DNA of 33,120 nt, from positions 1 through 33,120 of the IMG/VR virus record IMGVR_UViG_3300043539_002065. One strand, written 5' to 3'. This document shows, one piece after another, positions 2 to 15,600 of this stretch. Source of the stretch: a virus. A program made the translations under genes and the position numbers. Below the pieces are notes generated by a model that was given only the letters and a program-made list of their open reading frames with translations, did no database searches and was not told where the DNA came from. The number at the start of each line of letters is the position of its first letter. Position 1 is the first letter of the stretch.

Positions 2-2614
2 GATAATAGAGCTGAAATTCTTACTGTTTTTACTGAAAACAGGAGCGAAGTTATACAAGCTGGAATAAGAGACAGAACAAAGTGGGCGTCAACTCCTAAT
101 TTTCAATCAATTCTTTTCCCAAGCACAGGATGCGTAGCTGGGAGAAGCATAACATTTCAATCCGGATTAATGTGGTGGTATAGTTCTGGTGGTCTTGTTT
201 CTTCTGATGCTGCAGCCTCTTCAAATTTAACTAGTCAGATTAATTTTAGAGACGCGGAGATGGCATTCAGCAAACAATCACTTGCCTCTGACCAGTCTGG
301 AATATGCTCTTTAAGTTTTGAGAATTATTTGCTGGTTTCTGCACCTGTCAATGAGAATCTAAATTCAGAAACATTCGTTCTTGACTATGCCACAATGAGC
401 GAAGCTTCTGCTGAAAAAATACCAGCGTGGTCAAGTGTGTGGACAGGAATAAGACCTGTGCAATGGGTTTCTGCAAACATAGCAAACAGACGTAGGGCAT
501 TTGCAGCTTCTGTGGACTACAGCGCACTATCCGACGGAAGTCACAATCATATCTGGGAAGCGTTCATGCCAGAGCGAGAGGATTCATTTTTTGAACTTGG
601 GGCTGATAATGAATTGCAGAACTTTCGTCGTCCAATTTATTGTGAATTTGAAACAAGGTTGATGGGCGATGGCCACGATTTAAAAGTTTTTCTATACTCC
701 GACATAAATTTAATTGAAATTGCCGGAGATGTTTCTTTAAGGGTCGATTATAGGGGACTGCGCGGTTCTTACAAAAATGTTTTATGCAAAGAAATCATTG
801 CGCCAATTTCAATTGAGGATGCAGGAGCAAACATAACAGAAGACTTAAGTCAAGAGCTTGGCGAATTAAGAAAACAAAGTCGCAGAGTCATTACTGAATA
901 TGGCAACTTAGAAAAAAATTGCCCAACTTGTGAAAATGAAAATGTAGAAAGTATTGATAAAGCATTTAGTCTTCTTATAAGGTGGTGTGGACAACTTGCT
1001 GTTGAATCCATAAGACTTTTTATGGAACCGCATCCAGAGCGTTCAGACGGAAGATGTGAAGAAAATGAAACAAAAGTTTGCATCGTCGATGAGCAAGGCG
1101 TAAACCATTCTTATAAAAGAGCAGACGATTTTATAACAACAAGAGATAGATACGAAAAATCAGTGGCTTCGATTTTTATTTCCACGCAGTCTTATAGAGC
1201 AGAAAGACTTTGTCCTTCTCCTTCTGTTACTGGGCCAGTTGTTGTTAATGCCGTGGCAACATACAGATCAAAAGTTTCGCAAGATGACGCAGATTTGCAA
1301 GCCCTTGCTATAGCACAAAAAGCTGCAGAAGATCAACTTGCGGTCGTTTCTCAAGGGTATCCTTGTTACTACGATTCTGTAAAATTTGCTCCTGGGACGT
1401 GCTCAAGTGTGTTAAATGAAGAAGTTAATTCAATAGCCGCAATTTCAGACAAATTTGTTTTAGTTGGCAACTTTTGGTTTGACAACACAAGGCTCCAAGG
1501 AAAAATAACAGCAAAAGAATTAGTAAATGGCGGAAGACTTACTAATTTTACTCCTGTGAATATTGTTTCAAATGGATTTGTAAATACACCATTCAATCCG
1601 TTGGATCCTTCTGCAAGTTACAATGTATATTCAATTGCCAGCTATTCTGATGGGTCTTCAATATGTGTCGGTGATTTTCAGAAATACGCTGGAGAAAATA
1701 GGATTGGGATAGTAAAAATAACATCAAGTGGAACACTATCCACAGCTGTAACTTTTGGAGCAGGATTTCCTTCTGGGACTGCCAGAAAAGTAAAAATAGC
1801 AAATGATGGCCAGTCAATTTTTGTTTCTGGAACTTTTACGAGCTACGATGGAAATTCAGGAATTTCTCCAATTATAAAATTAAATGCCAATGGGACAGTC
1901 GCAAAAACATATAGCATCCCATTTGTTTCTATTAGAGATTTTATTGAGCAACCAGACGGAAAACTGGTAATTGCTGGATTTACGACGAATTCTAAAATAT
2001 CCGTCCGGCGTTTGAATGTAGATGGAACAGACGATTCTTCATTTACACACTATGAACACAATGCTCCAGACAATAATTTTTATGCTTTAGCTCTCCAAGC
2101 AGACGGAAAAATAATATTTTCTTCCATTGGCATAAATTCAAACAAGAACATAGTTCGGTTACTTGCAAATGGCACAGTCGACTCCACATTCAATGTTGGC
2201 TCTGGATTTGGCTCTGGTGTTGCGGCAAGATCTATAACAATTGACGCAACTGGGAATGTATATGCTGTTGGATCTTTTATTTCATACAATGGAACTCCAA
2301 GAAATAGGATTGTCAAAATTCTTCCAAATGGAGCTATCGATTCTTCATTTATTGTCGGGTCTGGATTTGATGATGTCGCGAACCAGATAATTATAAATAG
2401 CGCAAAATTAATCGTTGTTGGAAAATTCACTGAATACGACGGAGAGGCTTCAAGTCGATTCGCAAGATTAGATTTCAATGGCACTTTTATAGATTCATTT
2501 TTTTCTTATTCAATTGGCGGTGTTTATCGGAGTGAGATAAGCCAAGCTGATGCTGATGCGCAAGCATTGATTATAGCACAGGATTATGTAAACTCGGGAG
2601 TAATTTGCGAATAA
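2..2614 (+). CDS. Tail protein with delta-60 beta-propeller, 5'-partial
   Basis: The reading frame is open from base 2 with no stop, so the gene starts left of the window; the ATG at 170 is internal. About 870 residues are visible. The N-terminal part (to about nt 800) resembles a tail-nozzle-like protein family of podovirus-type phages, with WEAFMPERED and GDVSLRVDYRGLRGSYK. From about nt 1380 to 2510 there are repeated units such as QPDGKLVIAGF, QADGKIIFSS and NGTVDSTFNVGSGF, typical of delta-60 repeats (DUF5122), which form beta-propellers. Two DUF5977-like segments, YRSKVSQDDADLQALAIAQ (about 1259-1340) and YRSEISQADADAQALIIAQ (2522-2605), bracket the propeller. It probably sits in the virion tail and may contact the host surface. 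The domain calls are from motif recognition; the exact tail position is inferred. Confidence 0.75.
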   Translation, partial: DNRAEILTVFTENRSEVIQAGIRDRTKWASTPNFQSILFPSTGCVAGRSITFQSGLMWWYSSGGLVSSDAAASSNLTSQINFRDAEMAFSKQSLASDQSGICSLSFENYLLVSAPVNENLNSETFVLDYATMSEASAEKIPAWSSVWTGIRPVQWVSANIANRRRAFAASVDYSALSDGSHNHIWEAFMPEREDSFFELGADNELQNFRRPIYCEFETRLMGDGHDLKVFLYSDINLIEIAGDVSLRVDYRGLRGSYKNVLCKEIIAPISIEDAGANITEDLSQELGELRKQSRRVITEYGNLEKNCPTCENENVESIDKAFSLLIRWCGQLAVESIRLFMEPHPERSDGRCEENETKVCIVDEQGVNHSYKRADDFITTRDRYEKSVASIFISTQSYRAERLCPSPSVTGPVVVNAVATYRSKVSQDDADLQALAIAQKAAEDQLAVVSQGYPCYYDSVKFAPGTCSSVLNEEVNSIAAISDKFVLVGNFWFDNTRLQGKITAKELVNGGRLTNFTPVNIVSNGFVNTPFNPLDPSASYNVYSIASYSDGSSICVGDFQKYAGENRIGIVKITSSGTLSTAVTFGAGFPSGTARKVKIANDGQSIFVSGTFTSYDGNSGISPIIKLNANGTVAKTYSIPFVSIRDFIEQPDGKLVIAGFTTNSKISVRRLNVDGTDDSSFTHYEHNAPDNNFYALALQADGKIIFSSIGINSNKNIVRLLANGTVDSTFNVGSGFGSGVAARSITIDATGNVYAVGSFISYNGTPRNRIVKILPNGAIDSSFIVGSGFDDVANQIIINSAKLIVVGKFTEYDGEASSRFARLDFNGTFIDSFFSYSIGGVYRSEISQADADAQALIIAQDYVNSGVICE

Positions 2615-2615
2615 T

Positions 2616-3137
2616 ATGCCTTCTGCAATAGACATAAAAAATTATAAAAAAACTTTTCCAAGTGCATTTATAAGTCCATTTTCTGACAAACCTCCAATTG
2701 CGTTATATTCTTCTCTCACAATCAAAGGGATAAATGATGACGATTGTCTTCCTTGCTCGTTGACGTCTTTAAATTCGAACAAATTGCTGCGGTTCGTAAT
2801 TCAACTTGCAGAAGAAAAAATAATACTCCCTCAAAATTCTATCTCGACTTCTTCGGAAACTCCTATCATACCGCCTATTCCTTCAGGATCGCTTGAAAGC
2901 ATCACAGTAGAATTTGAAGGGGAGATAAATAACTTCGGGTTATTGCAACAAATAACATGGGAGAGATTTGACTTTGTTTCATCTCAAATATTCTGGACAT
3001 TCGATGCTGCAGCAGGAACTTTAATATCTAATATGATTTTTACAACAGACGGGCAGCAAAATTCCATAGATTGGGGAGACAATACGACTCCTTTGGCGAT
3101 AACATCCGGAGTTCCTTTCTCAAAAACAATTATTTAA
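2616..3137 (+). CDS. Putative small tail-associated protein
   Basis: A 173-residue protein whose ATG lies one base after the stop of the large tail gene, so it is translationally close-coupled to it. I do not recognise the family. The C-terminal third (DGQQNSIDWGDNTTPL) has the WGDN pattern seen in PKD-like and other immunoglobulin-like beta-sandwich domains, preceded by an LESITVEFEGEIN strand-like stretch. There is no signal peptide or membrane segment. Its position between two tail proteins suggests a tail accessory or fibre component. Function is inferred from context only. Confidence 0.6.
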   Translation: MPSAIDIKNYKKTFPSAFISPFSDKPPIALYSSLTIKGINDDDCLPCSLTSLNSNKLLRFVIQLAEEKIILPQNSISTSSETPIIPPIPSGSLESITVEFEGEINNFGLLQQITWERFDFVSSQIFWTFDAAAGTLISNMIFTTDGQQNSIDWGDNTTPLAITSGVPFSKTII

Positions 3138-3181: not shown

Positions 3182-4414
3182 ATGGCTCTAAATTTCGTAA
3201 TAACAAATGTCGGAAAAGCTGCAATTGCGCAAGCCGGAACACTTGGGCCAGTTGTCCTTTCTACGATTCAACTCGGCAATGCTGGTTACACTCCGTCTCC
3301 AACACAGACAGCACTTCAAGCCCCAATCAAGTCCATAACTCCTTCTGGATTTTCAAATCCAACTCCAGAAACAATTCATTTTACAGTTTCTGATGAGACA
3401 ACCGATACCTACACGTGTCAAGAGATTGGCATCATAACAAGCACCGGAATTTTATTTGCAGTTTATTCTCAACCAAGTCCAATCCTTGTTAAAGTTAGCA
3501 CTACTGCAGCATTCTTTGCTATAGACTTGGTGATAACTGGAATACCTCCAGGATCGTATACGCTTGGCGGAACTGGATTCTCATATCCACCAGCTTCTGA
3601 AACAGTGAAAGGTGTTTCATTTCTTGCGACACAAGCAGAAGTAAATTTAGGAACAGATACTTTAAAAGTTGTAACGCCAGCAACACTTCGCAATAGAACA
3701 TATAGCGTAGAATATTCAAATTTAAGCAATGATGCCGACTACACGAAAAATACCCGCAAGCGTGTAAATTCAGCTTCAATAAATTTTGATCCTGCATTTC
3801 TTGAAGCTGGAAATTTAACTTGCACTGCTGGAGTAATTCCTGTCAATGGAACGATTGTTGCTGCAGCAGGATCAACACTTGCTGTGACTGCGTTAAGTGA
3901 CCTTGGAACTTGGACAATGACAAATGCGACAACATTTGAAGGAGATCGTTTTGTCGGCATGATTTTTAAAATAACTAGCATCTCAGGTGTGGCGAATGCG
4001 ACGCTTGGTGGAGTGAATGTTTCGACGCTTGGCGTTCAAATAACACGCGCAATTTCGGCAACACAACTTGAGTTTAAAATGCTTTCTGGAGCAGCCATCA
4101 CAACTCAAACTGGCGTAAACACATTTATTCTAAATTCTAATGGCATTAGATCAATTTATGGTTGCGCGTTAACAAGGTTGGCAGCATTTGATTATCGATT
4201 GACATTCACAACGCCATTCACAGATACTTCTTATTCCTGGACAGGATCTGTTGGAACGGCATCAACAGGATCGTTGTGGATTGGAAGTCCGGCTCTTCCG
4301 TATAACCAATGGAAAACTCCTTCCTCCCTTAGATTCAGAGCTGTTTCTGCAACGGCAACTGTTTCTACGAATATTATGAATGATATCTCAATTGTAGTTA
4401 CCGCCACGCGATGA
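3182..4414 (+). CDS. Tail fibre protein (DUF3751-like N-terminus)
   Basis: A 410-residue protein. The N-terminus (ALNFVITNVGKAAIAQAG, then LGNAGYTPSPTQTALQAP and CQEIGIITSTGILFAVYSQ) fits the phage tail-collar fibre N-terminal family (DUF3751, gpH-like), which docks fibres to the baseplate or tail. Residues near 150-170 (TQAEVNLGTDTLKVVTPATL) match the short repeat motif common in tail fibres before the distal shaft. The rest is Thr/Ser/Gly-rich and beta-strand-like, as expected for a host-binding tip. No Shine-Dalgarno is obvious before the ATG; the 44-base AT-rich gap upstream holds nothing else I can name. The stop overlaps the next start (ATGA). Confidence 0.8.
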   Translation: MALNFVITNVGKAAIAQAGTLGPVVLSTIQLGNAGYTPSPTQTALQAPIKSITPSGFSNPTPETIHFTVSDETTDTYTCQEIGIITSTGILFAVYSQPSPILVKVSTTAAFFAIDLVITGIPPGSYTLGGTGFSYPPASETVKGVSFLATQAEVNLGTDTLKVVTPATLRNRTYSVEYSNLSNDADYTKNTRKRVNSASINFDPAFLEAGNLTCTAGVIPVNGTIVAAAGSTLAVTALSDLGTWTMTNATTFEGDRFVGMIFKITSISGVANATLGGVNVSTLGVQITRAISATQLEFKMLSGAAITTQTGVNTFILNSNGIRSIYGCALTRLAAFDYRLTFTTPFTDTSYSWTGSVGTASTGSLWIGSPALPYNQWKTPSSLRFRAVSATATVSTNIMNDISIVVTATR

Positions 4415-4796: not shown

Positions 4797-5609
4797 ATGG
4801 GAGGAGGAACACCAAAAGTGCATCTTGACAAGACAACTGGACCTGCTGATCCAGGAGACCCACGTCTTACACAAAATATGATTGCGGGTTTAGGTTTAGG
4901 AAAAGGAATAACCGACCTATCAATCAAGATGACGCCAGAAATGCGAGCGCAGCAAACAGATGCTCTTCAGAGGACTGCTGCACGCGAGGCAGAAATAAAT
5001 GCTCTGAAATCTAGAGGTCTTGAAGAGAGGATGGATCCTCGTTTGGCACAGGTAAGGAAAGCACTTTCACGACAGACAGCTGAAGATCTTGAAGGTGGCC
5101 CAAGCAAAGAGTTGTCAAATATGTGGCTAAAACAAGGTTTGGCTGATATCGTTTCGACAGGAGCCAATCTTCGCTCTGGATTTGCTCGTTCTGCACTTGC
5201 AGACAGAACTCGCGAAGACTATTACCTGGCCCGTGCAGCTGCTCAGGATCGTGCAGCTAGGCTTTTGGCTGCAAATCCAATGCAACTCGCAGGGCTTGAT
5301 CCTGGAGCAATTGCAAGCTATGAGGCACAAATGGGTGCAGAAAATGCAAACGCACGAGAAGGATACCAAACAAGGAATCTGGGCTTGATGTCAAACCAAG
5401 CTGAAAATGCAATGGGTGGTTTTCAGCAGTTTGCTCAAATGGATGCTCAGCGGAGAGCCAATAACGCACAAATTGAAGCCAATAGGCGTTCTCAAAATCT
5501 TCAAGCTAAGAATGCGGGTTCGGCAGCTGGAGAAGGAAACAAAACGGCATTGATGGGCGCGGGAATAGGTGCCGCTGGAGCTTTAGCAGGTGCAGCGATT
5601 ATTTTCTAA
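4797..5609 (+). CDS. Ala/Gln-rich internal virion (ejection) protein
   Basis: A 270-residue protein starting MGGGTPK, two bases after the previous stop and preceded by the purine-rich ACAGGAGAAT. Residues 45-240 are almost entirely helical and rich in Ala, Gln, Arg and Glu (DALQRTAAREAEINALKSR, AQDRAARLLAANPMQLAG). The last 17 residues (GAGIGAAGALAGAAIIF) form a glycine-zipper-like hydrophobic segment that could insert into a membrane. This architecture resembles the T7 gp14-type internal core or ejection proteins that build the DNA conduit through the cell envelope; sequence similarity to gp14 is not evident, so this is inference. Its stop overlaps the next start (TAATG). Confidence 0.6.
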   Translation: MGGGTPKVHLDKTTGPADPGDPRLTQNMIAGLGLGKGITDLSIKMTPEMRAQQTDALQRTAAREAEINALKSRGLEERMDPRLAQVRKALSRQTAEDLEGGPSKELSNMWLKQGLADIVSTGANLRSGFARSALADRTREDYYLARAAAQDRAARLLAANPMQLAGLDPGAIASYEAQMGAENANAREGYQTRNLGLMSNQAENAMGGFQQFAQMDAQRRANNAQIEANRRSQNLQAKNAGSAAGEGNKTALMGAGIGAAGALAGAAIIF

Positions 5610-6412
5610 TGATAACATTAATAGAAAAAACAATCGAGTCTTTGCTTTTAGTTTTTGAGAAATCAAAACGACCTGCATTGCTTTGGTCTGGAGGAAAAGA
5701 CAGCACTGTTTTGTTTTTCATGATAAAAGATGTTCTTAAAAAAGACATCGACTGCATTCAGTGGACGCTGCCGTGGATGAAAGCAAAATGGGCTTTTCAG
5801 AATAAAATTTCTCAAGACTTTAATTTGACAGCATATGATTCTTCACCAAAATCAATATCACTTTGCTATGGTAATGATCGCATCGATTTCATGGAATCAT
5901 ACTCCATAGGACAAGAAAATATCATCATCGCTCGTGGGACAGAACCACACGAAGCTGAAAAAGATTATGTATGTGGTGTTGAATGGCTGTTGCGTCCTAA
6001 AATTGACAACACAGAGTTTGTTTGGGATAGTTTGATCTGTGGCCACAAAAGCTGCGATGTTGATCCGTTGAGTGGGCCAATTCCACTTCAGGTCGATGTT
6101 CAGAGAATTCCAAATTCTGCAGACATTTGGTTCCCTTTGAAGGAGTGGACTGAGAAAAACATTTCAGACTATACGCTGAATAATGATATTCCATTTGACA
6201 GAAATAGATATGAAGTGATTGATGGCATCATCAAGACAAAGCAAGACAAGCACCTGAATAGCGACTATTATCACACATGCACAAATTGCATAAATAAAAA
6301 TTCACCTGAATATGTCAAATGCCCAAAGTTAAATGGCATGGTAATCCCAAACATATCAGAGTCAGTTCAGACCTGTGAGCCTAAAATTCCATATTGTGGA
6401 CTAAGGAGCTAA
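5609..6412 (+). CDS. PAPS reductase-like PP-loop enzyme
   Basis: A 267-residue protein with the PP-loop SGGKDS at residues 27-32, diagnostic of the ATP-pyrophosphatase/PAPS reductase family (PF01507), followed by RGTEPHEAEKDYVCGVEWLLRP and PLKEWTEKNISDYTLNNDIPF, the usual substrate-side region. It ends with five cysteines at 224, 227, 238, 256 and 263; the CxxC-x10-C group could bind an iron-sulfur cluster or zinc. The family includes sulfate-assimilation reductases and DndC of DNA phosphorothioation, so reduction of PAPS, or thiolation of DNA or RNA, are all possible. It is embedded by TAATG overlap in a virion-gene operon, a recurrent place for such enzymes in phages. The substrate is unknown. 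Confidence 0.8.
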   Translation: MITLIEKTIESLLLVFEKSKRPALLWSGGKDSTVLFFMIKDVLKKDIDCIQWTLPWMKAKWAFQNKISQDFNLTAYDSSPKSISLCYGNDRIDFMESYSIGQENIIIARGTEPHEAEKDYVCGVEWLLRPKIDNTEFVWDSLICGHKSCDVDPLSGPIPLQVDVQRIPNSADIWFPLKEWTEKNISDYTLNNDIPFDRNRYEVIDGIIKTKQDKHLNSDYYHTCTNCINKNSPEYVKCPKLNGMVIPNISESVQTCEPKIPYCGLRS

Positions 6413-6413
6413 A

Positions 6414-6560
6414 ATGAAAAAAGGACTTTATGCCAACATACATGCAAAGCGAGAGCGGATTGAAGCTGGCAGTGGAGAAAAGATGAGACCCAAAGGAGCA
6501 AAAGGAGCACCAAAGGCGAGTGCATTTCGTGAAGCACTCAAAACAGCAAAAAAATTGTAA
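6414..6560 (+). CDS. 48-residue basic phage protein (MKKGLYANI type)
   Basis: A short ORF with the ideal ribosome site AAGGAG five bases before the ATG, ending by TAATG overlap with the next gene. The protein begins MKKGLYANIHAKRERIEAGSG and continues with MRPKGAKGAPKASAFREA. It is strongly basic (Lys/Arg). This opening is one I recognise as a conserved microprotein of many tailed phages, often beside virion or ejection genes. It may bind nucleic acid or be packaged, but its function is unknown. It is below common ORF length cut-offs. Confidence 0.75.
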   Translation: MKKGLYANIHAKRERIEAGSGEKMRPKGAKGAPKASAFREALKTAKKL

Positions 6561-6802
6561 TGGCAACTCGCTTCGCAAAAATATTTAAGAATCCTGAAAC
6601 TGGCAGAATGAATACAGTTAAATTTGGACAATCTGGAAAAGCATCAGATGGAAAAGACAGAATTCGTCCAGGGACTGCCAAAGGCGATTCGTATTGTGCT
6701 AGGTCTGCAAAAATAAAAGGAGATTGGAAATCTGATCCAAATTCTCCTAACAATCTTTCACGTAAAAAATGGAAATGCCGAGGAAGCAAATCCATGAAAT
6801 AA
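6560..6802 (+). CDS. 80-residue basic protein (DPNSPNNLSRKKWKC type)
   Basis: An 80-residue basic protein overlapping the preceding microprotein by one base. It contains KFGQSGKASDGKDRIRPGT, GDSYCARSAKIKGDWK and DPNSPNNLSRKKWKCRGSK. This pattern recurs in small phage proteins next to MKKGLYANI microproteins (I believe DUF6321-like, not verified). The two cysteines (in YCARS and KWKCRG) are widely spaced and are not a standard zinc motif. The tight pairing with the previous gene suggests that the two act together, perhaps as packaged DNA-associated proteins; that is inference. Confidence 0.7.
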   Translation: MATRFAKIFKNPETGRMNTVKFGQSGKASDGKDRIRPGTAKGDSYCARSAKIKGDWKSDPNSPNNLSRKKWKCRGSKSMK

Positions 6803-6841
6803 AAGTTTGAAAATAACAATAAACTAGAAGGAAATAAAAAT

Positions 6842-7183
6842 ATGGGAGGAGCAGGAGCATCAGCGGGAGCAGGAGCAGCGGGAGCAGCCGGAGCGTCAGC
6901 CGCGTCATCAGCCGCCACGCAACAAGCCACGCAACAAGCCGCCACGCAATTAGCGCAAAGACAAGCACTCGCGTCAGGAGTGACAGACGCATTTGGCAAA
7001 ATCGGAGAAGGATTTGCAAATCAAAAATCAGCATACTCTCCAGGCATGTTTCAACCTCAAAAAATAAATATGCCTGTTATTGCTCCCTATAAATATAAAT
7101 TCGGTGCTACGACCGACGCAGATCTTCGTGGCAGAATGTATTCTGGAACAGATTTTTCAAATCCTGCACAACGCAGGTTTTGA
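6842..7183 (+). CDS. Gly/Ala-rich MGG protein, putative virion component
   Basis: A 113-residue protein preceded by AGAAGGA nine bases before its ATG. Residues 1-30 are almost only Gly, Ala and Ser. Residues 25-45 are a Gln/Ala/Thr helix encoded partly by a perfect 12-bp tandem repeat (6914-6937). The C-terminal half is unlike the rest (INMPVIAPYKYKFGATTDAD) and looks folded. It belongs with the neighbouring MGG-starting proteins, which I read as small internal virion or ejection-associated proteins. There is no recognisable enzyme motif. The GC-rich codons of the first third contrast with flanking genes. Confidence 0.6.
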   Translation: MGGAGASAGAGAAGAAGASAASSAATQQATQQAATQLAQRQALASGVTDAFGKIGEGFANQKSAYSPGMFQPQKINMPVIAPYKYKFGATTDADLRGRMYSGTDFSNPAQRRF

Positions 7184-7215
7184 TATAACAAAAAACAAAA
7201 TAAGGAGGAATAATT

Positions 7216-7695
7216 ATGGGTGGAGGAGGAAGACGCAGAAGTAGTAGCAGCAAGCCGCAAGCTCCGGCTCCGGCGCCAGTTGATAATTCAATGCAACTTT
7301 GGGCTGCTGAAATGGATAAACAGCGCAAGTATCAAACAGAGCAATACGACGCGCAGACCAAAAGATATGATGATCTTCGCAAAGAAGAGCAAGCCAAAAT
7401 TGCCGCTGATAATGCAAAGCGCGAGCAAGAGCTCTGGAATGAGAAACAAATGGTAAAAGATGCAGCGGCACTGGACCAGTATAAAGGAGCAACAGAAAAT
7501 TATGCACAGCAAGTTGGATCGGCACCAATGGATATTTCAATGGAAGACTCGACAACTTCTGCAATCAACAAGCGCATAGGAGACAAGTCTAAGTCTTCTG
7601 CTCCTGCTCCTGGCTTGACGCCATTTGGAACAAATATCGTTAAGCCAGCAAATCAAATTTATCAAGCTCAACAAGCAAGAATGGGAGGAATGTAA
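7216..7695 (+). CDS. MGGGG coiled-coil protein, putative virion component
   Basis: A 159-residue protein with a strong AAGGAGG site seven bases before the ATG. It opens MGGGGRRRSSSSKPQAPAPAP, a basic and then proline-rich tail, followed at about residues 27-85 by a highly charged helix (MDKQRKYQTEQYDAQTKRY, EEQAKIAADNAKREQEL) likely to form a coiled coil. The C-terminus ends ARMGGM; the codons for these last residues (GGGAGG at 7683-7688) double as the ribosome site of the next gene. This suggests that the block is strictly co-translated. Probably an internal or ejection-associated protein; no family recognised. Confidence 0.6.
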   Translation: MGGGGRRRSSSSKPQAPAPAPVDNSMQLWAAEMDKQRKYQTEQYDAQTKRYDDLRKEEQAKIAADNAKREQELWNEKQMVKDAAALDQYKGATENYAQQVGSAPMDISMEDSTTSAINKRIGDKSKSSAPAPGLTPFGTNIVKPANQIYQAQQARMGGM

Positions 7696-7696
7696 T

Positions 7697-8290
7697 ATGG
7701 GAAAATCTGTCAAAGAGCAACTTGCCATTTTAGAGAAGACTCGTGCAAGAGATTTTCAAAACTATCAGAACACTGGACAAGGGCCAGATTGGGTAAAAAA
7801 ACAATCCGGTCAAGCTCCTGGCGCAAGCGCACAAGAACTTGCACAACGAAGTGTTTCTGGCAATTGGTCACAACCTCAATCTCAATCTCAGCCAAAACCT
7901 CAGTCTTTCACGCCACCTCCTTCTGCCAATGTTCCTTCTGGAGCAGACAGAGCAGCAGCAGAAGAGCAAGATCGTGTTGATGCTGAGAATCGTGCGCGAG
8001 AAACTGCTCGCCTTGCCGATATAGAGAAAAATAGGTATCAAAGAGTCAGCGGCAAAGAAGGAGAGCAGAGGCGCAAAGAATTCGAATCAAAGTCTTCGGC
8101 GGCTGCTTCAAGGGCAACTGGAGCAATGGGCCAAAAATTACCAAGACCTTCAATCAATATAGTCTCTCCGCAGAAAAGTATTCTTGGAATTCCTAAAGAC
8201 TCGCGACAATTCACAAAATTTGGCGAATCAATTAATCGTGCTGCAAATTTAACCTTCTCAAATCCAGAAGCAAGAGTTGGAGGGATGTAA
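7697..8290 (+). CDS. Gln/Ser/Pro-rich protein, putative virion component
   Basis: The start was chosen at the ATG 7697 because GGGAGG lies eight bases upstream; the frame is open further upstream to 7625, but that part overlaps the preceding gene. The 197-residue product begins MGKSVKEQLAILEKTRARDF. It has a disordered Gln/Ser/Pro segment (SQPQSQSQPKPQSFTPPPS), then a charged helix (RAAAEEQDRVDAENRARETA), and ends EARVGGM. Like the previous protein, its last codons (GGAGGG at 8279-8284) form the ribosome site for the next gene. No enzyme motif is visible. The context argues for an ejection or internal virion role. Confidence 0.6.
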   Translation: MGKSVKEQLAILEKTRARDFQNYQNTGQGPDWVKKQSGQAPGASAQELAQRSVSGNWSQPQSQSQPKPQSFTPPPSANVPSGADRAAAEEQDRVDAENRARETARLADIEKNRYQRVSGKEGEQRRKEFESKSSAAASRATGAMGQKLPRPSINIVSPQKSILGIPKDSRQFTKFGESINRAANLTFSNPEARVGGM

Positions 8291-8293
8291 ATT

Positions 8294-9685
8294 ATGGAAA
8301 CAAGAGGATTTCAGTTTAATGCTCCTGCTGCAGCAAGACTTGAAAATATTCAAGCTCCAAAATTCGATTTTGTGAGCGGTGCGAGTCTCGTTGCAGCTCC
8401 AGCACTTGTTGATCCAGGAATTGACATTTGGCTTAAAGGTCAGCAGCAAGCATCTGAAAATCTCTTGTCTGGCATAAATATTGGCGTTAAAGGTCTTTCG
8501 GAAGGAATATCCAAAAGATTCGAGTACGAAAACGAAAAAGAACTGTTAAAAGAAGAAGCAAAATTAGAAGAAGCAGAGGATCTTAACAAATTTTTGCAAG
8601 ACGTCTATCTCGCTGATTTGAAGTCTGAGGATAATACGCTAAAAGATGATTTTACACGACTTCAAATAGCTGAGAAAAAACGCGAGCTTGCTGCTGCTAA
8701 TTTATACGATCCTCTTCCAGAGACTGATACAACCGGAGTTCCACTGGCAGGAGCTCCTTCCCCAGAAAAAGGATTTGGGGCAGGCACAGGGACAGGAGGA
8801 AGATTTTCAATGAGACTTTCTGATTTAAAATCTCCAGATCAAGCAACTGACGGACAACAGCTCACAGCAGAATTCTCTGATGCTGCTCCTGCTGCTGTGA
8901 CAAGAACGAGGTATTCTGAAAAAGAAATTGGAGGAGGAAAAGTTGCAATTTACGATAATTTAAAGAGACAGATAGTTCCTGGGACAATTTCTGATAAAGA
9001 AACTTCAGCTGAAGTTCCAACTCCAGAAGGATTCACAAGAAAAGGATTCACAAAGAAAACAAAGACAGGCACTGAGACCTATGAGAAAGAGGGATCAGGA
9101 AGTCAAATGTCAGATACGATGGTGACAAAACTTGCTGCATATTCATCATTAAAAGATTCTATTAAAGACATTGAAGAGCAGGTAAAAGACATGACTCGTG
9201 GTCCAATAGTTGGCGTTTTAAGAGAAAAAAATCCTTATGATGTTGCTGCCCAAAAATTGAATAAGCTAGTTGAAAGTGTTGTGCCTGGATTGGCAAAAAC
9301 TGTTTTTAATGAAGTTGGTGTTCTTACCGATGCAGATGTTCTTAGATATAAAGCTATGGTTCCAAATGTAAAAACAGAGGCTGAGCTTGCCGATGGATTG
9401 CTGGATATGCTAAATAAAAAAATAGCTTCTGGATACGAATCAACTCTTAATGCAGCAGAGGATGCAAAAATTGATGTCTCTGGATTTAGAGCAAGACAAG
9501 CAAAAGAAAAAGCAGCAACAGACAAAACAACAGAGCAGGCTGGGCTTCTTGATGAAATCAAAGCACTAAGAGAAAAAGTAAAAACAACTGGGCTTGTTGA
9601 TACAACTCGTCCAGCACTCATTCAATCTATTGCTGCAAAAACTAAAGAATATATCCAGAAAACTGGACAATCTCCTAAATTCTAA
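8294..9685 (+). CDS. Ejection-type virion protein (LAKTVFNEVGVLTDADV)
   Basis: A 463-residue, mostly helical protein. Residues 60-130 are a long charged helix (KRFEYENEKELLKEEAKLEE). A disordered Gly/Pro/Thr region follows, and a C-terminal helical domain carries VESVVPGLAKTVFNEVGVLT and DADVLRYKAMVPN. I recognise the pattern of a lumen-side helix plus GEVGVLTDxDI-like motif from large internal and ejection proteins of many podoviruses and some myoviruses, where it precedes the biggest ORF. Its stop overlaps the giant gene (TAATG). It probably enters the cell with the DNA; the biochemical activity is unknown. Confidence 0.6.
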   Translation: METRGFQFNAPAAARLENIQAPKFDFVSGASLVAAPALVDPGIDIWLKGQQQASENLLSGINIGVKGLSEGISKRFEYENEKELLKEEAKLEEAEDLNKFLQDVYLADLKSEDNTLKDDFTRLQIAEKKRELAAANLYDPLPETDTTGVPLAGAPSPEKGFGAGTGTGGRFSMRLSDLKSPDQATDGQQLTAEFSDAAPAAVTRTRYSEKEIGGGKVAIYDNLKRQIVPGTISDKETSAEVPTPEGFTRKGFTKKTKTGTETYEKEGSGSQMSDTMVTKLAAYSSLKDSIKDIEEQVKDMTRGPIVGVLREKNPYDVAAQKLNKLVESVVPGLAKTVFNEVGVLTDADVLRYKAMVPNVKTEAELADGLLDMLNKKIASGYESTLNAAEDAKIDVSGFRARQAKEKAATDKTTEQAGLLDEIKALREKVKTTGLVDTTRPALIQSIAAKTKEYIQKTGQSPKF

Positions 9686-12600
9686 TGACACTTCCGTCAA
9701 TCCCGATGGTTCCTCAGTCGATGCTAAACTGGGGAAAGAGAGTTTCTGATAAGCTAAAAGAAGATGAAGTTCCAGTGCCAACTGGATCTCCATTGACGCC
9801 AGAAGAAGAGCAGCAAATTGCTGATGAGTTGGATGATGATCCTATTTTTACAAAAGAAGAAAATGCTCTTCTTCGCAAAGCTAAAAAAGAGGCTGAAGAA
9901 AAGCGTAAGCAGGACGAAGCAGACTTGGCAGATGCTCAGAAGATTGCAGAAATTCAGACAGAGAAAGATCCTTCAAAGCTAAAGCAATACAAAGAAGAAG
10001 GAGTTCCATTAGACAAGGAGCAAGAAAAGATTGCATGGAAGTATGAGCGAGACATGCCAGCTACTCGTAAAGTTGGCGACTTTATGCGTCGTGCAGGAAA
10101 AGGTCTTGAGGATATAGCGACAGACATTCCAGTTGGAATTTATAAAGGTGTCAAGTATGGAGTTTTTGATCCGATTGGTGCAATGGATGCATCTCCAGAA
10201 GAAGAGGCTAAAGCACTTAAGAAAGCTGAGCAAGTGGCAAGATCATTTGGTTCTGGTGCTGTAGGAGGAATTGAAGATATTGTTTATAAATTGCCAAAGA
10301 CTGTTTACAAAGGTGGCACACCAATCACTGATTGGGCAAAGGAGCTTGTCGGTGCACAGACAGAAGAAGAATCGTATCAGAACTATTTAAAACGCAAAGC
10401 TGTTGGCGAAGAATTTGCCAAAGAGCAAGAGCGGATGCCAGAGCGCAGTTCTGCTCTTCTTGAGAATGTTTCTCTTGGCCTTGGAAAAATTGGAGCTCTT
10501 GATAAAACATTTTCTGAAGGTCTTGCTCAGCAATTCAGAGAGCGAGCTCTCACGAAAGAGCAATTGATTCCTGAAGTTGCAACACTTGGCGATATTGTCG
10601 CTCCTGACATTCCATTGATGAACAGAGTTGCTCCTCTGACAGCAAAGGCTACAGGAAAGATTGGGGAAGTAGCTTTAAAAGGTCTCACAGGTGTCCAAGT
10701 TGGCAATCGTCGCATTGGTGTTGCTCCAGCAGTTGAGAAAGTTGGCTGGGCTGGTCGTCGTCTTGGAGAAAAAATAAATGAATATTCTGCAAACATAGAT
10801 CGAGCAATCAGCGGAAGTGACGATTGGATTTTCCGCAATGCTGTTGGAAAAACATCAAATTTCCTTGGCAGAGGTTCTGGTTTGATTGAAGGTGTTGGTC
10901 GTTTTGGCACAGACATTGGTCGCGTCATCGACACTGGTATTGCTGGACGCAAAGGTATTGCTGAGCGTCTTGGTCAAAGTCCAACAACTGGCCGTCTTGG
11001 CAATGTCCTTTTCGGAGACGGAAGCCAAGGATTGCGTAAAAAACTTGGTGAGATGTCGCCTGTCGAGGCTGCTGCAGAGGCTGAAAAGGCTGCTGAAAAG
11101 ATGGAAAAAGGAGCACGCCAAGGGCTGGCTCGTGCGCGTGCTGTCGATTCTGCTTCAAGGCTTGCTCAGTATTATGCCAAAGCTGGCATCAATGGTGCAG
11201 CAGTTCAAGTTATGCTTGGATTGCCAAACATGGAAACATGGGGTGATGTTGGCGAGGCCACTGGTTATGGAGGTGGCATGGGATTCATTTCAGCTTCTTC
11301 GCCAAAGAGCTTGCTCGTTGATCGTGTTCGTGCAGACCAGCGTGTTGCTGCTGAAGCTGACATCAACAGGATGATGCAGGATCTTGACGATTCGACAAAG
11401 GACAAATTAAAGTCTCTTGCTGATCCTGTTAATTTTGTTAATCAATTGAACAAACGCAAAGAGGTCGTAGATTCAAGACTTGGTCTTCTTAAAGACATTG
11501 TCAATTCTGCCAAAAAACGCACAATTGGCAATACAACAATAACTCCTCGTGATGCTCAAGCTGAAATAGATCACATTGAGAATGAAATTCTGCCAAAGAT
11601 AAATTCAAGTATCACAAGTGCATCAAAAACTGATCCAAAGACCCAGAAAGAAATCGAGTTCATAATTAACAAAGAGTTCATGGACTCTCTCGGCAACTTG
11701 AAAGCTGTTGCTGATCAATCTGGAATTGGTGGCGACATTGATGTGCGAATGCTAAGCACAGATGAAATAAAAGCTGCCATTGATGAAATGTATGCTGGTC
11801 AGAAGCAAGCTGCTGATGAAGTTATCAAAACTCTTGGTGGCCAGGAAAACTTGTCTCCTGAAGACAAGAAGCTGGTTGATGATGCGATTGCTTTTCAAGA
11901 ATTCCTTGAGACAGAAAAAGAAAATAATTCAAGTCAGCGAGGATTTGCTCTCACGCCAGCAAGAGAAAGAACTCAAACTGGTTGGTGGCAAGGTGGTGGT
12001 GCTCCTGTCAACAAGCCGACAATCATAATAAATTCTGATGATCTCAAGAATTCCAGAGGACTGGATCTTTCCTCTGTTATGCGTCATGAAATGTTCCATG
12101 GGCTTCTGCAATTTAGCGAGGTTCAGGACATGATGAAAGAATATACTGATGTTCTTTTTGATCAATATACAACAGACGCTGAAGGGAATCAGGAAAAATT
12201 CAGTGATGGAATTATCAGTGATGAGAAACTGCGCCAGATGGCTGACAAATACAGCGCAAAATACAATCCTTTGGAAAAAGGAATGTGGCGTTCGATGTTT
12301 GAAACAGACGCAGATCTTCTAAATGCAATCAAAGAAGAGTTTCTTGCTGAAACATTTACTCAGAGTGGTGGCGCCAGTGGAATGACAAGCAATGTTGAAG
12401 ACTCTGTTGTTGAGACTGTGCTTGATTATGCTCGTGCGCAAAATTCCTCTTCAGCTCTTGGCAGAATTAGGGACTCGTTAGGAAAGTTTGGCATTAGCAT
12501 TGATGACTCTGGCCGAAGCAATGTGCTTGAATCAGAGATTCCAAGCCAAGCCATTGCTCTCATGCGCCAATTCCGCAGAACTTTGCGTGACTACAATGGA

Positions 12601-15600
12601 ACGCTAAATCAGATCGGCCAAGCCGAACTAAATGCTCCTGGTGCAATTCCAATAACAAAAATCGCTTCAAGCAAGGCATTGTTCAATCGCTACAAAGATG
12701 CAGATTTCTGGGAGCGCGAGGCTGCTACGACGATTACTGCTCCTGATGGGACTGTGATTAGTGAGGAAGTGCTTCCAAAGTCCGCACAAGCCAAGTTGGT
12801 TGCTGGAGAATGGACAGTTCAAAATGGCAAATTAGTCCCTGTTGATCCAGAATATTCGTCCGTGGCGCCAAAAGCACTTCAACGCATGGCCAAAGGCAAG
12901 CCAGACGGCACTAAAATCGTCGCAGGTGTGCGTGTAGCTCGCAATGCGGACGGAACGCCTAGGATCTTAAGCAAAGGAGCTATAGACGCCATTTCTCGCA
13001 AAAGAAATGATCTCCTGAAGCAAGCCATAGACACAGCTCCAGAGGACGGAACTCCAAATCGTCTCAAAGACACAGGAAATGGCAATTATCGTGGCGTCAT
13101 GTCGCCAAGCCAACTCATTGCTATTTCTCAGATTCCTGACATTGTTCTTCCTCCGAGGATGAAAGTTCTCATTCGCAAGATCAATGAGATGCTCTTGCGC
13201 AATGATGGATCACGCTTTAACACAGAATATCAGGCAGCTTTGCGTGGTGGTGGATATCGAGCAATGGCGCCAAGGTTCAGCGACGATGTTCCGATCGGAT
13301 TCCAATTCAGCAAAGATGGTAACTTCTTGGTAACGACTGTTTCTGTCACTCGTCTTAACAACAAGTTGAATGCTTGGGCAAAAGAAATGCCAGGAAGATT
13401 GGCTCTGTGGAATGGGAGCAAGTATGATTTCTGGGCAGATTTTGTAAAAGTCCTAGATAACCAGAAGAAAAATATCGCAGGAGAAACTGATCTTGATGGT
13501 GATCCACAGGTTGCGCTTGAAAAGAAGAATGTCATCAATGACTTGCTGAACCTTTACAACAAAGAAACAGAACTTCTGAATCCAAGCCGAACAAAGTTGA
13601 AGCAGAAACGTGGTCAGGACAGCAGAGATCGCACGATTGTTTCTCGTCGTTTGGATCGCATGTTGCGTTTGGACGAAAACAATGCTGAGAAGTTGCCAAT
13701 CAACTATGGCAAAGTGATCGCCAATGCCTTGCCACAAGAAGAATTTGATTTCACAGACGCTGATCCAGCGACTCAAAAATTCTACCAAGACTTTGAAATC
13801 CTAAACAAGAAATCAGGCGAATATGCTGGCCAGCCAGTCAGGATTTCTGTTGAAGCAAATACTGCTGAAGAAGCAGAGCAAATGATCCGCAACACGCCGG
13901 AGTATCAACGCTACAACAATGCGTATCGTTTTAACTCCATCGGCAAACCATACTCAAGGCCAGAAGAGTCTGATAGACCAACTCCTGAAGATTTCTTAAA
14001 AATAAAAACAAGTCTTGGAACTGCTGCCAAAGCTCTTCCTGCAGCAGTTTATGGAGAGTTCTATCATGGGACAAACAATCCTGAAAATCTTTTAGAGCAG
14101 CCAGAAGATTTTTTTGAACAAAAATTTTATGGAAGATTCGATCCTATTGAAGTCATTTATGTTGCTCCAGATAAAAATGATGCTACAAAATTTGGAAATT
14201 CAGTTTTAAAAACCAAACTTAAAAGTTCAAATATTTTTGATCCAGGGAGTGATGAAGATCTTAAAAAATTCAAAGATTCTGCACTGGCTTTCATCGATGA
14301 AAGGTATGAATCTTTTGATGATCTTCCTATAAAGGAATTAAGTTATCTTGTAAACCCAGACGGATCTCCAATGGATAGCCCAGATTGGAGAAATAAATTG
14401 GCAGACGCATATGCTAATGAAATAGCAAAAAGGAGATATGACAAGTCTGGCAGCTGGATATTCACAGAGATTAATGCCGACATAATTAAAGATGCAGGAT
14501 TTGATGGATATATTGCTTGGGAGTATGGAAATCCTCAGATTGGATTTTTCCCTGATAGGACTGGTTATGAGTTTAAGTTAGACAAATCTGGATTTCCTGC
14601 AAAAAAATCTGGCAAAGTTGATTTTGCCAAAGCACTGCCAGATATATCTAATCCAGACGACGTTAGAAATGAAGTAAGTTCTATTTTTGGAAGACAATTT
14701 GGGTACCCAGAAATTAAAGATTGGTTTGTTAAATCATATTTGAAAAACTTTATTAAATCTTCCATTGAAGATGCAGAAAGTCGTGCAGATTTGGAAGATT
14801 ATAGATTTGTTGCTGGCGATCCAGAATATAAAAAGAATATGAAGAATTTTTTAGGATTCAAAGATTCTGAAAAAAGCTGGCTTGCTCATGTCATAGACTG
14901 GACAAACTCAATATCACAAACAGACAGAGACAAACTTTATAAACAGCCATATTCAGAAATAAATAGAAAAGTTTTCGAATGGTCTGAAAGTATGGCTAAA
15001 AAATCAGAAAAGGCTGAGAAGGAAAAGATAAAATACAAAGATGAAGGAAAAGATTTTAAAACATTAGTTGGCCTTCAAGATGGCTACTCCGCTGTTGAAC
15101 TTTTAAGTCCTGAAGCATATTCAGAAGAAGGAGAAAGAATGGGCCATTGTGTTGGTTCATACTGCAGACCTGGAACTAAAAACAACAAGTTTTTAAAAAT
15201 TTATTCTATTAGAGATCAGAATAAAATTCCTCGTGCAACAATAGAAGTCATAAATGATCTTAATAAATATATAGAGGAAGAGTTAAAAATTCGCTGGAAA
15301 GAAAACTCTTCTGAATTTTCTAAAAAAGAATATGACGAAAATTTCCGTGACGAAATAACTCAAGATATATTTGGAGGAATTGATCCTTACGAATATGATG
15401 ATTCTGACAAAAGTGCTGTTGTTTTTCAAATAAAAGGAAAAGCGAATGAAGCTGTTTCTGAAAAATATGCACCATATGTTCGTGAATTTTTAAAATCAAA
15501 AATTGGATCTAAATTTGCAATATATGCAGACGGAGAAAATATTGGTCTTGTAAAAAGAGATCCGACAGCAAGACCATCTGAATACAGCAAATATTATTCT

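Follow-up and report, generated by a model that had tools for sequence, protein, structure and literature searches.

A delta-60 beta-propeller between DUF5977-like elements at the C-terminal end of a predicted podovirus tail nozzle

The gene at the 5' edge of the IMG/VR virus record IMGVR_UViG_3300043539_002065 most likely encodes, as judged from structure prediction, the tail nozzle of a short-tailed phage from an uncultured group, which is built round a propeller of its own and has a delta-60 beta-propeller as a second one behind it. We give about an even chance to the fuller reading that the nozzle carries the delta-60 propeller within a second copy of DUF5977, that the propeller was gained probably once, and that it serves as an accessory surface-binding domain. 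Architecture, presence or absence, exchange and rates were read from sequence, and the folds of the nozzle core and of the propeller are predictions. The window, by which we mean the entire 33,120-base record, begins inside this gene, so that the open reading frame at 2-2614 is open at its 5' end with 870 codons remaining. In the near-identical contig L002/L027, the whole gene encodes 1106 amino acids, the first 236 of which lie outside the window. The parts of the gene and its two downstream neighbours are as follows.

2 to 1030, plus strand: C-terminal part of the predicted tail nozzle core of the P22 gp10/T7 gp12 type (predicted structure, Foldseek and VIA)
1031 to 1174, plus strand: linker from the nozzle core to DUF5977 copy 1, lying after the end of the nozzle match (model residue 579) and diverging faster than the nozzle
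about 1175 to 1366, plus strand: DUF5977 copy 1, a complete hairpin and helix (PF19404), and the end point of propeller-less relatives
about 1367 to 1402, plus strand: possible first strand of DUF5977 copy 2, YYDSVKFAPGTC (model strand 93-103, with a conserved Cys)
about 1403 to 2503, plus strand: delta-60 (DUF5122) beta-propeller, predicted to be seven-bladed (PF17164, model and VIA)
2504 to 2611, plus strand: rest of the putative DUF5977 copy 2, with the second strand, the helix and the terminal Cys (PF19404 profile 31-64; model strand 470-480 and helix 484-500)
2612 to 2614, plus strand: stop codon of the nozzle gene
2616 to 3137, plus strand: small neighbour gene (blastp homologs beside the nozzle in relatives)
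3182 to 4414, plus strand: tail collar fibre gene (Pfam PF12571, E 3.7e-5; PHROG tail fibre families)

An earlier reading of this DNA from sequence alone had described a delta-60 propeller bracketed by two DUF5977-like segments, and this arrangement was confirmed. The open reading frame matched Pfam DUF5122 (PF17164, the delta-60 propeller) over six stretches (E 3e-33, 114.2 bits against a cut-off of 27) and DUF5977 (PF19404) over two (E 5.6e-9, 36.9 bits against a cut-off of 25). The bracketing segments, YRSKVSQDDADLQALAIAQ at residues 421-439 (nt 1262-1318) and YRSEISQADADAQALIIAQ at residues 842-860 (nt 2525-2581), are identical at 14 of 19 positions. Chance likeness between them was ruled out, since none of 2000 shuffles of residues 460-870 reached 14 identities and the best gave 8.

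The nozzle core was modelled from the 696 residues before the propeller, taken from L002, with 36 sequences; the model is of moderate confidence (mean pLDDT 72.5, pTM 0.65). When it was compared with the PDB by Foldseek, ranks 1-8 were all podovirus tail chains (TM by target 0.23-0.59), and the matches include Pa223 9nwi_Y (E 4.3e-12), P22 9jg6_a and 8eap_D, SU10 7z4f_G, Sf6 7sg7_S and T7 gp12 7boy_s. VIA placed a tail chain of phage VP1, 8zkm_E, first (Z 22.7, rmsd 4.2, 420 aligned), with model residues 21-579 aligned on residues 10-515 of that chain, and the Pa223 chain tenth (Z 21.4, 421 aligned). In the same comparison, Z 20-22 was also reached by many unrelated propellers, but over only about 270-310 residues, so that the phage chains stand out by aligned length. 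As in solved nozzles, the predicted core has a central beta-propeller with further domains (model residues ~21-579), and it covers nearly the entire VP1 and Pa223 chains; the neighbouring genes match tail families. In its predicted propeller-centred core, the protein thus resembles the podovirus nozzles P22 gp10, T7 gp12, SU10 gp17, Pa223 and VP1, and the predicted fold supports the earlier assignment of the gene to a tail protein. At the sequence level, no PDB chain matched the nozzle profile at E 10, and the nozzle of L014 gave a weak PHROG match to phrog_511, 'internal virion protein' (E 0.00051). A sequence match of the core to solved chains was not to be expected, because the nozzles of SU10 and T7 lack detectable sequence similarity, according to the SU10 report (PMC9509320). 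What sets the present protein apart from all of these nozzles is the DUF5977-like domain at its C terminus and, in the lineage of the window, the additional propeller behind the core. The SU10 report also describes extra Ig-like domains in the SU10 nozzle between propeller blades 2 and 3, that is, not at the C terminus, unlike the propeller added here (PMC9509320).

Structure prediction of the C-terminal region, the check that had been proposed for this architecture, placed the propeller between DUF5977 elements. The model (window nt 1094-2611, 506 residues, 17 sequences; mean pLDDT 85.0, pTM 0.72) gives DUF5977 copy 1 strands at 28-38 and 49-59 and a long helix at 63-88. These are followed by a strand at 93-103, seven blades by our own strand count, a strand at 470-480 and a helix at 484-500. 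The predicted propeller, at about model residues 104-470, matched CylK 7fh6 in VIA (Z 28.1 over 320 residues) as well as many seven-bladed chains at Z of about 26-27, which is consistent with a seven-bladed fold. With six recognised repeats and this predicted fold, it is like other delta-60 (DUF5122, PF17164) propellers.

Copy 1 of DUF5977 is also recognisable from relatives that lack the propeller. A profile of 60 distinct propeller-less ends found copy 1 in the window and in ten relatives at 31-61 bits; in the window it matched residues 28-80 of the C-terminal region at 30.7 bits. Copy 1 covers most of the Pfam profile (PF19404) in propeller-bearing relatives; the propeller-less ends of L012 and L014 scored 22.4 and 11.6 bits, both below the cut-off of 25. 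Here, in contrast to DUF5977 as otherwise described, the domain caps a predicted tail nozzle, and an entire propeller probably interrupts its second copy. DUF5977 is listed among the stalk domains of fibrillar adhesins in PMC8286594, a listing that would, by analogy, fit a spacer role in this protein.

From the modelled order of strand, propeller, strand and helix, we consider it probable that DUF5977 copy 2 is a whole domain with the propeller lodged in its hairpin loop. The four cysteines expected of two DUF5977 copies were all present in 20 of 20 distinct 3'-complete propeller proteins. In copy 1, one follows the first strand and one stands at the domain's end; in copy 2, one lies 12 residues in, and the last is among the three final residues of the protein. 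A single such Cys pair was found in 64 of 71 propeller-less ends. In a splice test with 500 controls for each protein, the joined copy 2 beat all controls in two of ten proteins (L034 and L035); the controls matching it numbered 3 in L032, 4 in L037, 10 in L042, 11 in L038, 22 in L047, 47 in the window's protein, 221 in L109 and 467 in L029. With Pfam DUF5977, splicing of copy 2 in four pairs raised the score only for L035; the window (24.1 vs 24.7 bits) and L042 showed no rise, and L047 gave no match either joined or unjoined.

We collected relatives by single-protein and profile scans of viral contigs, with nozzle cores 40-100% identical to the queries; in two of these scans, the best 80 of 151 and the best 80 of 363 relatives were read. 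Without exception, the 71 distinct propeller-less proteins with an intact 3' end terminate after a single DUF5977-like domain, and those complete at both ends have 695-717 amino acids; the counts of 71 and 20 leave out the 3'-complete fragments L209 and L111, which fall outside the length filters. For the trees, we excluded 5'-cut rows and rows more than 98.5% identical to one kept, and we counted L009 and L033, both cut inside the propeller, as propeller-bearing. In the first tree (77 rows), which keeps three rows cut before the C terminus, a long branch separates all 14 rows with a propeller from all 60 rows without one. The second tree, which drops such rows, has 77 nozzle representatives, 14 with the propeller and 63 without it, the latter including L194 from a later scan. 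The 63 representatives without a propeller rule out that it is an ordinary colinear domain in all relatives. Rather than being colinear throughout and diverging at the same rate as the rest of the gene, the propeller is absent from most representatives and mostly diverges faster than the nozzle. It is likely that the ancestral form ended in one DUF5977-like domain.

The history on the propeller side depends in part on L194, a protein of 695 amino acids with no propeller and one DUF5977-like end. It groups with the propeller side (support 100), and the quick tree puts it inside that side (support 81, for the branch leaving out L047), where two changes are needed. This placement favours an alternative in which the propeller is ancestral and was lost both from the larger group and from L194. 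We regard this alternative as quite unlikely, because two or more clean losses would be required, each with its end point directly behind copy 1, because an AU test did not reject a single propeller clade (p 0.494), and because the propeller-less form is commoner among the fetched relatives, in a tree that is unrooted. A single gain of the propeller is the simplest and most likely history, and L194 may have lost it. Movement of the propeller to a separate downstream gene in L194 was ruled out: gene order is kept there, with homologs of the small gene, a 127-aa gene and a 270-aa gene immediately after the nozzle.

Where present, the propeller usually, though not in every comparison, outpaces the nozzle in divergence. 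The nozzles of L027 and L032 are 86% identical and their propellers 71%; the corresponding values are 93% and 90% for L027 and L028, and 88% and 87%, or nearly equal rates, for L027 and L029. Between clades, propellers are 29-44% identical as against 59-69% for the nozzles, or up to 71% with L004, a 5'-cut row. The dN/dS ratio of the propeller was 0.05-0.24 in 43 pairs, and that of the nozzle was 0.01-0.09 in 38 pairs, with five of the 43 undefined owing to saturated dS; many of the dS values behind these ratios lie above 1, which makes them unreliable. Judged by these ratios, the propeller is under purifying selection that is somewhat relaxed, and a signal of diversifying selection is absent at the dN/dS level.

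Comparison of the same locus among relatives, which the sequence-only reading had also recommended, revealed other inserts. Proteins of a sister clade (L034-L040, L043 and others) reach 1219 or 1342 amino acids through a nested domain of 113 amino acids within the propeller, which in the longer form itself encloses a homologous segment of 123 amino acids (38% over 94 residues). Nucleotide divergence in 150-column windows reveals exchange within this clade. Between L035 and L040 it is 0-5% for most of the nozzle, 15-28% across most of the propeller and 2-7% at the end; between L035 and L043 it is 7-21% in the nozzle, 12-24% at the propeller start and 0-4% from column 2551 to about 3600. Walks along four triples of the sister clade, which like the 12 tests in the window's clade were picked after the divergence tables had been viewed and whose permutation counts carry no correction for this, pointed to exchange in all four cases (0 of 20,000 permutations in each). 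Two of the tracts are confined to the DUF5977-propeller part. In L040 (with L035 and L034), the tract spans amino acids 666-1144 in L034 numbering, with L034-like versus L035-like sites at 217:2 inside and 44:138 outside. In L035 (with L040 and L043), it spans 743-1204 in the same numbering, with L043-like versus L040-like sites at 150:12 inside and 22:266 outside. The other two walks of L040, with L039 and either L034 or L036, gave tracts at amino acids 175-1184 and 130-1191, which extend far into the nozzle. The confined tracts have four ends, of which one falls in DUF5977 (amino acid 666 of L034, where copy 1 spans 624-690) and three fall inside the propeller, which lends little weight to the proposal that the DUF5977 segments act as hinges.

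In the window's own clade, the propeller was colinear in all six members compared, and divergence was even along the gene apart from shorter exchange tracts, which suggests largely vertical descent. One such tract, in L028 at window positions 1867-2249, has L029-like versus L004-like sites at 56:12 inside and 45:400 outside (0 of 20,000 permutations). Among the 12 walks in this clade, five stood at 0, one at 1 and four at 18-135 of 20,000 permutations, and the remaining two, at 2175 and 13567 of 20,000, clearly lacked significance. The earlier idea of a swapped module therefore holds in part: the propeller is missing from most representatives and segments of it have been exchanged in the sister clade, but in the window's clade it is colinear with shorter tracts.

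The exchange could also be explained if the propeller were an ordinary, slightly relaxed decoration and its apparent swapping reflected the general homologous recombination of these phages. Exchanged tracts are indeed found beyond the propeller, in the collar fibre gene and the genes downstream of the nozzle as well as into the nozzle itself, and the purifying dN/dS values would suit such a decoration. However, dS in the nested domain is 1.53 for L035/L040 and 1.30 for L039/L040, whereas nozzle dS in the same pairs is 0.12 and 0.17, which indicates that distinct alleles are kept there. Furthermore, the propeller has been retained at 29-44% identity where the nozzles are about 59-71% identical, with L194 as the sole known exception on that side. 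We consider this explanation unlikely.

Homologs of the small gene adjoin nozzles with a propeller in L034, L042 and L109 and nozzles without one in L050, L058, L078, L082 and L194; in L109, at 7480-8853, the small gene is present as two adjacent homologous genes after the nozzle. Variability is also seen in a second module, the tail collar fibre gene: over 200 columns near 3593, L028 is 34% different from the window and 2% different from L007. Homologs of this gene (window 3182-4414) were found at E 0.01 in neither L034 nor L194. After the tail genes, window 5609-6412 has a PAPS-reductase-like match (phrog_424, E 1.7e-5), and L006, L010, L034, L042 and L109 have homologs of this gene in the same arrangement. 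Beside the virion genes, window 9685-18378 is an open reading frame of 2897 amino acids with two near-repeated stretches which, by a motif in the translation, resemble GNAT acetyltransferase domains. Upstream of the L006 nozzle, an open reading frame at 2-2512 contains five PATR (Pfam passenger-associated-transport-repeat) stretches and matches a tail fibre PHROG (E 1.9e-8), and a 180-aa gene matches a PHROG of unknown function; our guess is that the latter is an adaptor.

Instead of binding a surface, the propeller could be a docking or reinforcing part for a fibre, a collar protein or adjacent nozzle subunits, in which case its exchange would follow that of the appendage held. Precedents are found in two structural reports: the T7 fibre dock joins the nozzle propeller to the platform (PMC6702177), and the short fibre of SU10 is held by a dock loop of the nozzle propeller (PMC9509320). 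The collar fibre gene varies among the window's relatives as well, and two genes upstream of the L006 nozzle match tail or fibre families. Against a dock, the presence of the propeller does not follow that of the collar fibre gene, since L034 has a propeller and no homolog of that gene at E 0.01. We therefore judge a docking role to be rather unlikely, while it is the main rival of an accessory surface-binding domain.

Nozzles, delta-60 propellers and DUF5977 are each known already, and the new element, as far as we searched, is a nozzle with an added propeller; no description of one was found in the literature searched, which comprised titles, the beginnings of abstracts and passages. The same literature yielded nothing on the delta-60 repeat in phages, and DUF5977 and DUF5122 were each mentioned there in a single paper. 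The statement in the sequence-only reading that delta-60 repeats are known mainly from secreted bacterial proteins needs correction, because they also occur in other phage proteins: in the viral contig L026, in Stenotrophomonas phages CM1 and RAS14, and in a BFVD entry named 'Delta-60 repeat'. Those in L026, CM1 and RAS14 belong to different proteins, whereas the propeller described here forms part of a predicted nozzle chain, between DUF5977 elements. The L026 example, at 6102-14147 of a 140-kb contig, is an open reading frame of 2682 amino acids with delta-60 and DUF285 repeats and long Thr/Pro-rich linkers. Two queries against 50,697 cultured phage records found no relative of the nozzle, and among cultured phage records the propeller was found only in CM1 and RAS14. 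None of the 32 and 23 pattern matches in GTDB genomes was a relative; as two and one short patterns were used, this does not imply absence.

By homology, the nozzle would be a hexamer that gates DNA beneath a dodecameric adaptor. The lineage of the window would have added to it, most likely once, a further DUF5977 copy and a delta-60 propeller with seven predicted blades, so that the virion would bear about six extra propellers extending from the ends of the nozzle chains. In T7, the C-terminal end of gp12 is the platform near the fibre dock, as stated in PMC6702177, and by analogy with gp12 the propellers and DUF5977 would leave the nozzle at the collar, round the tail rather than at its tip. 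We propose that the propeller is a putative accessory domain binding a surface, either a glycan or the envelope, because it is exchanged between close phages, carries nested domains in some of them, mostly diverges faster than the nozzle and is under purifying selection. An exposed and exchangeable propeller would most simply be such an accessory binding domain.

The search for determinants of phage specificity usually centres on fibres and spikes. A more tentative reading, which we favour less than not, is that the nozzle, and not a separate fibre, is the platform for stacked, swappable surface modules, a domain within a domain within a propeller within a duplicated DUF5977, whose exchange as cassettes among close phages would change what the collar binds. 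The locus offers a natural series, from no propeller (L194) through the propeller alone to the propeller with one and with two nested domains. If the nozzle does carry an exchangeable propeller of this kind, host-range prediction and the assignment of receptor-binding proteins in metagenomes would miss it.
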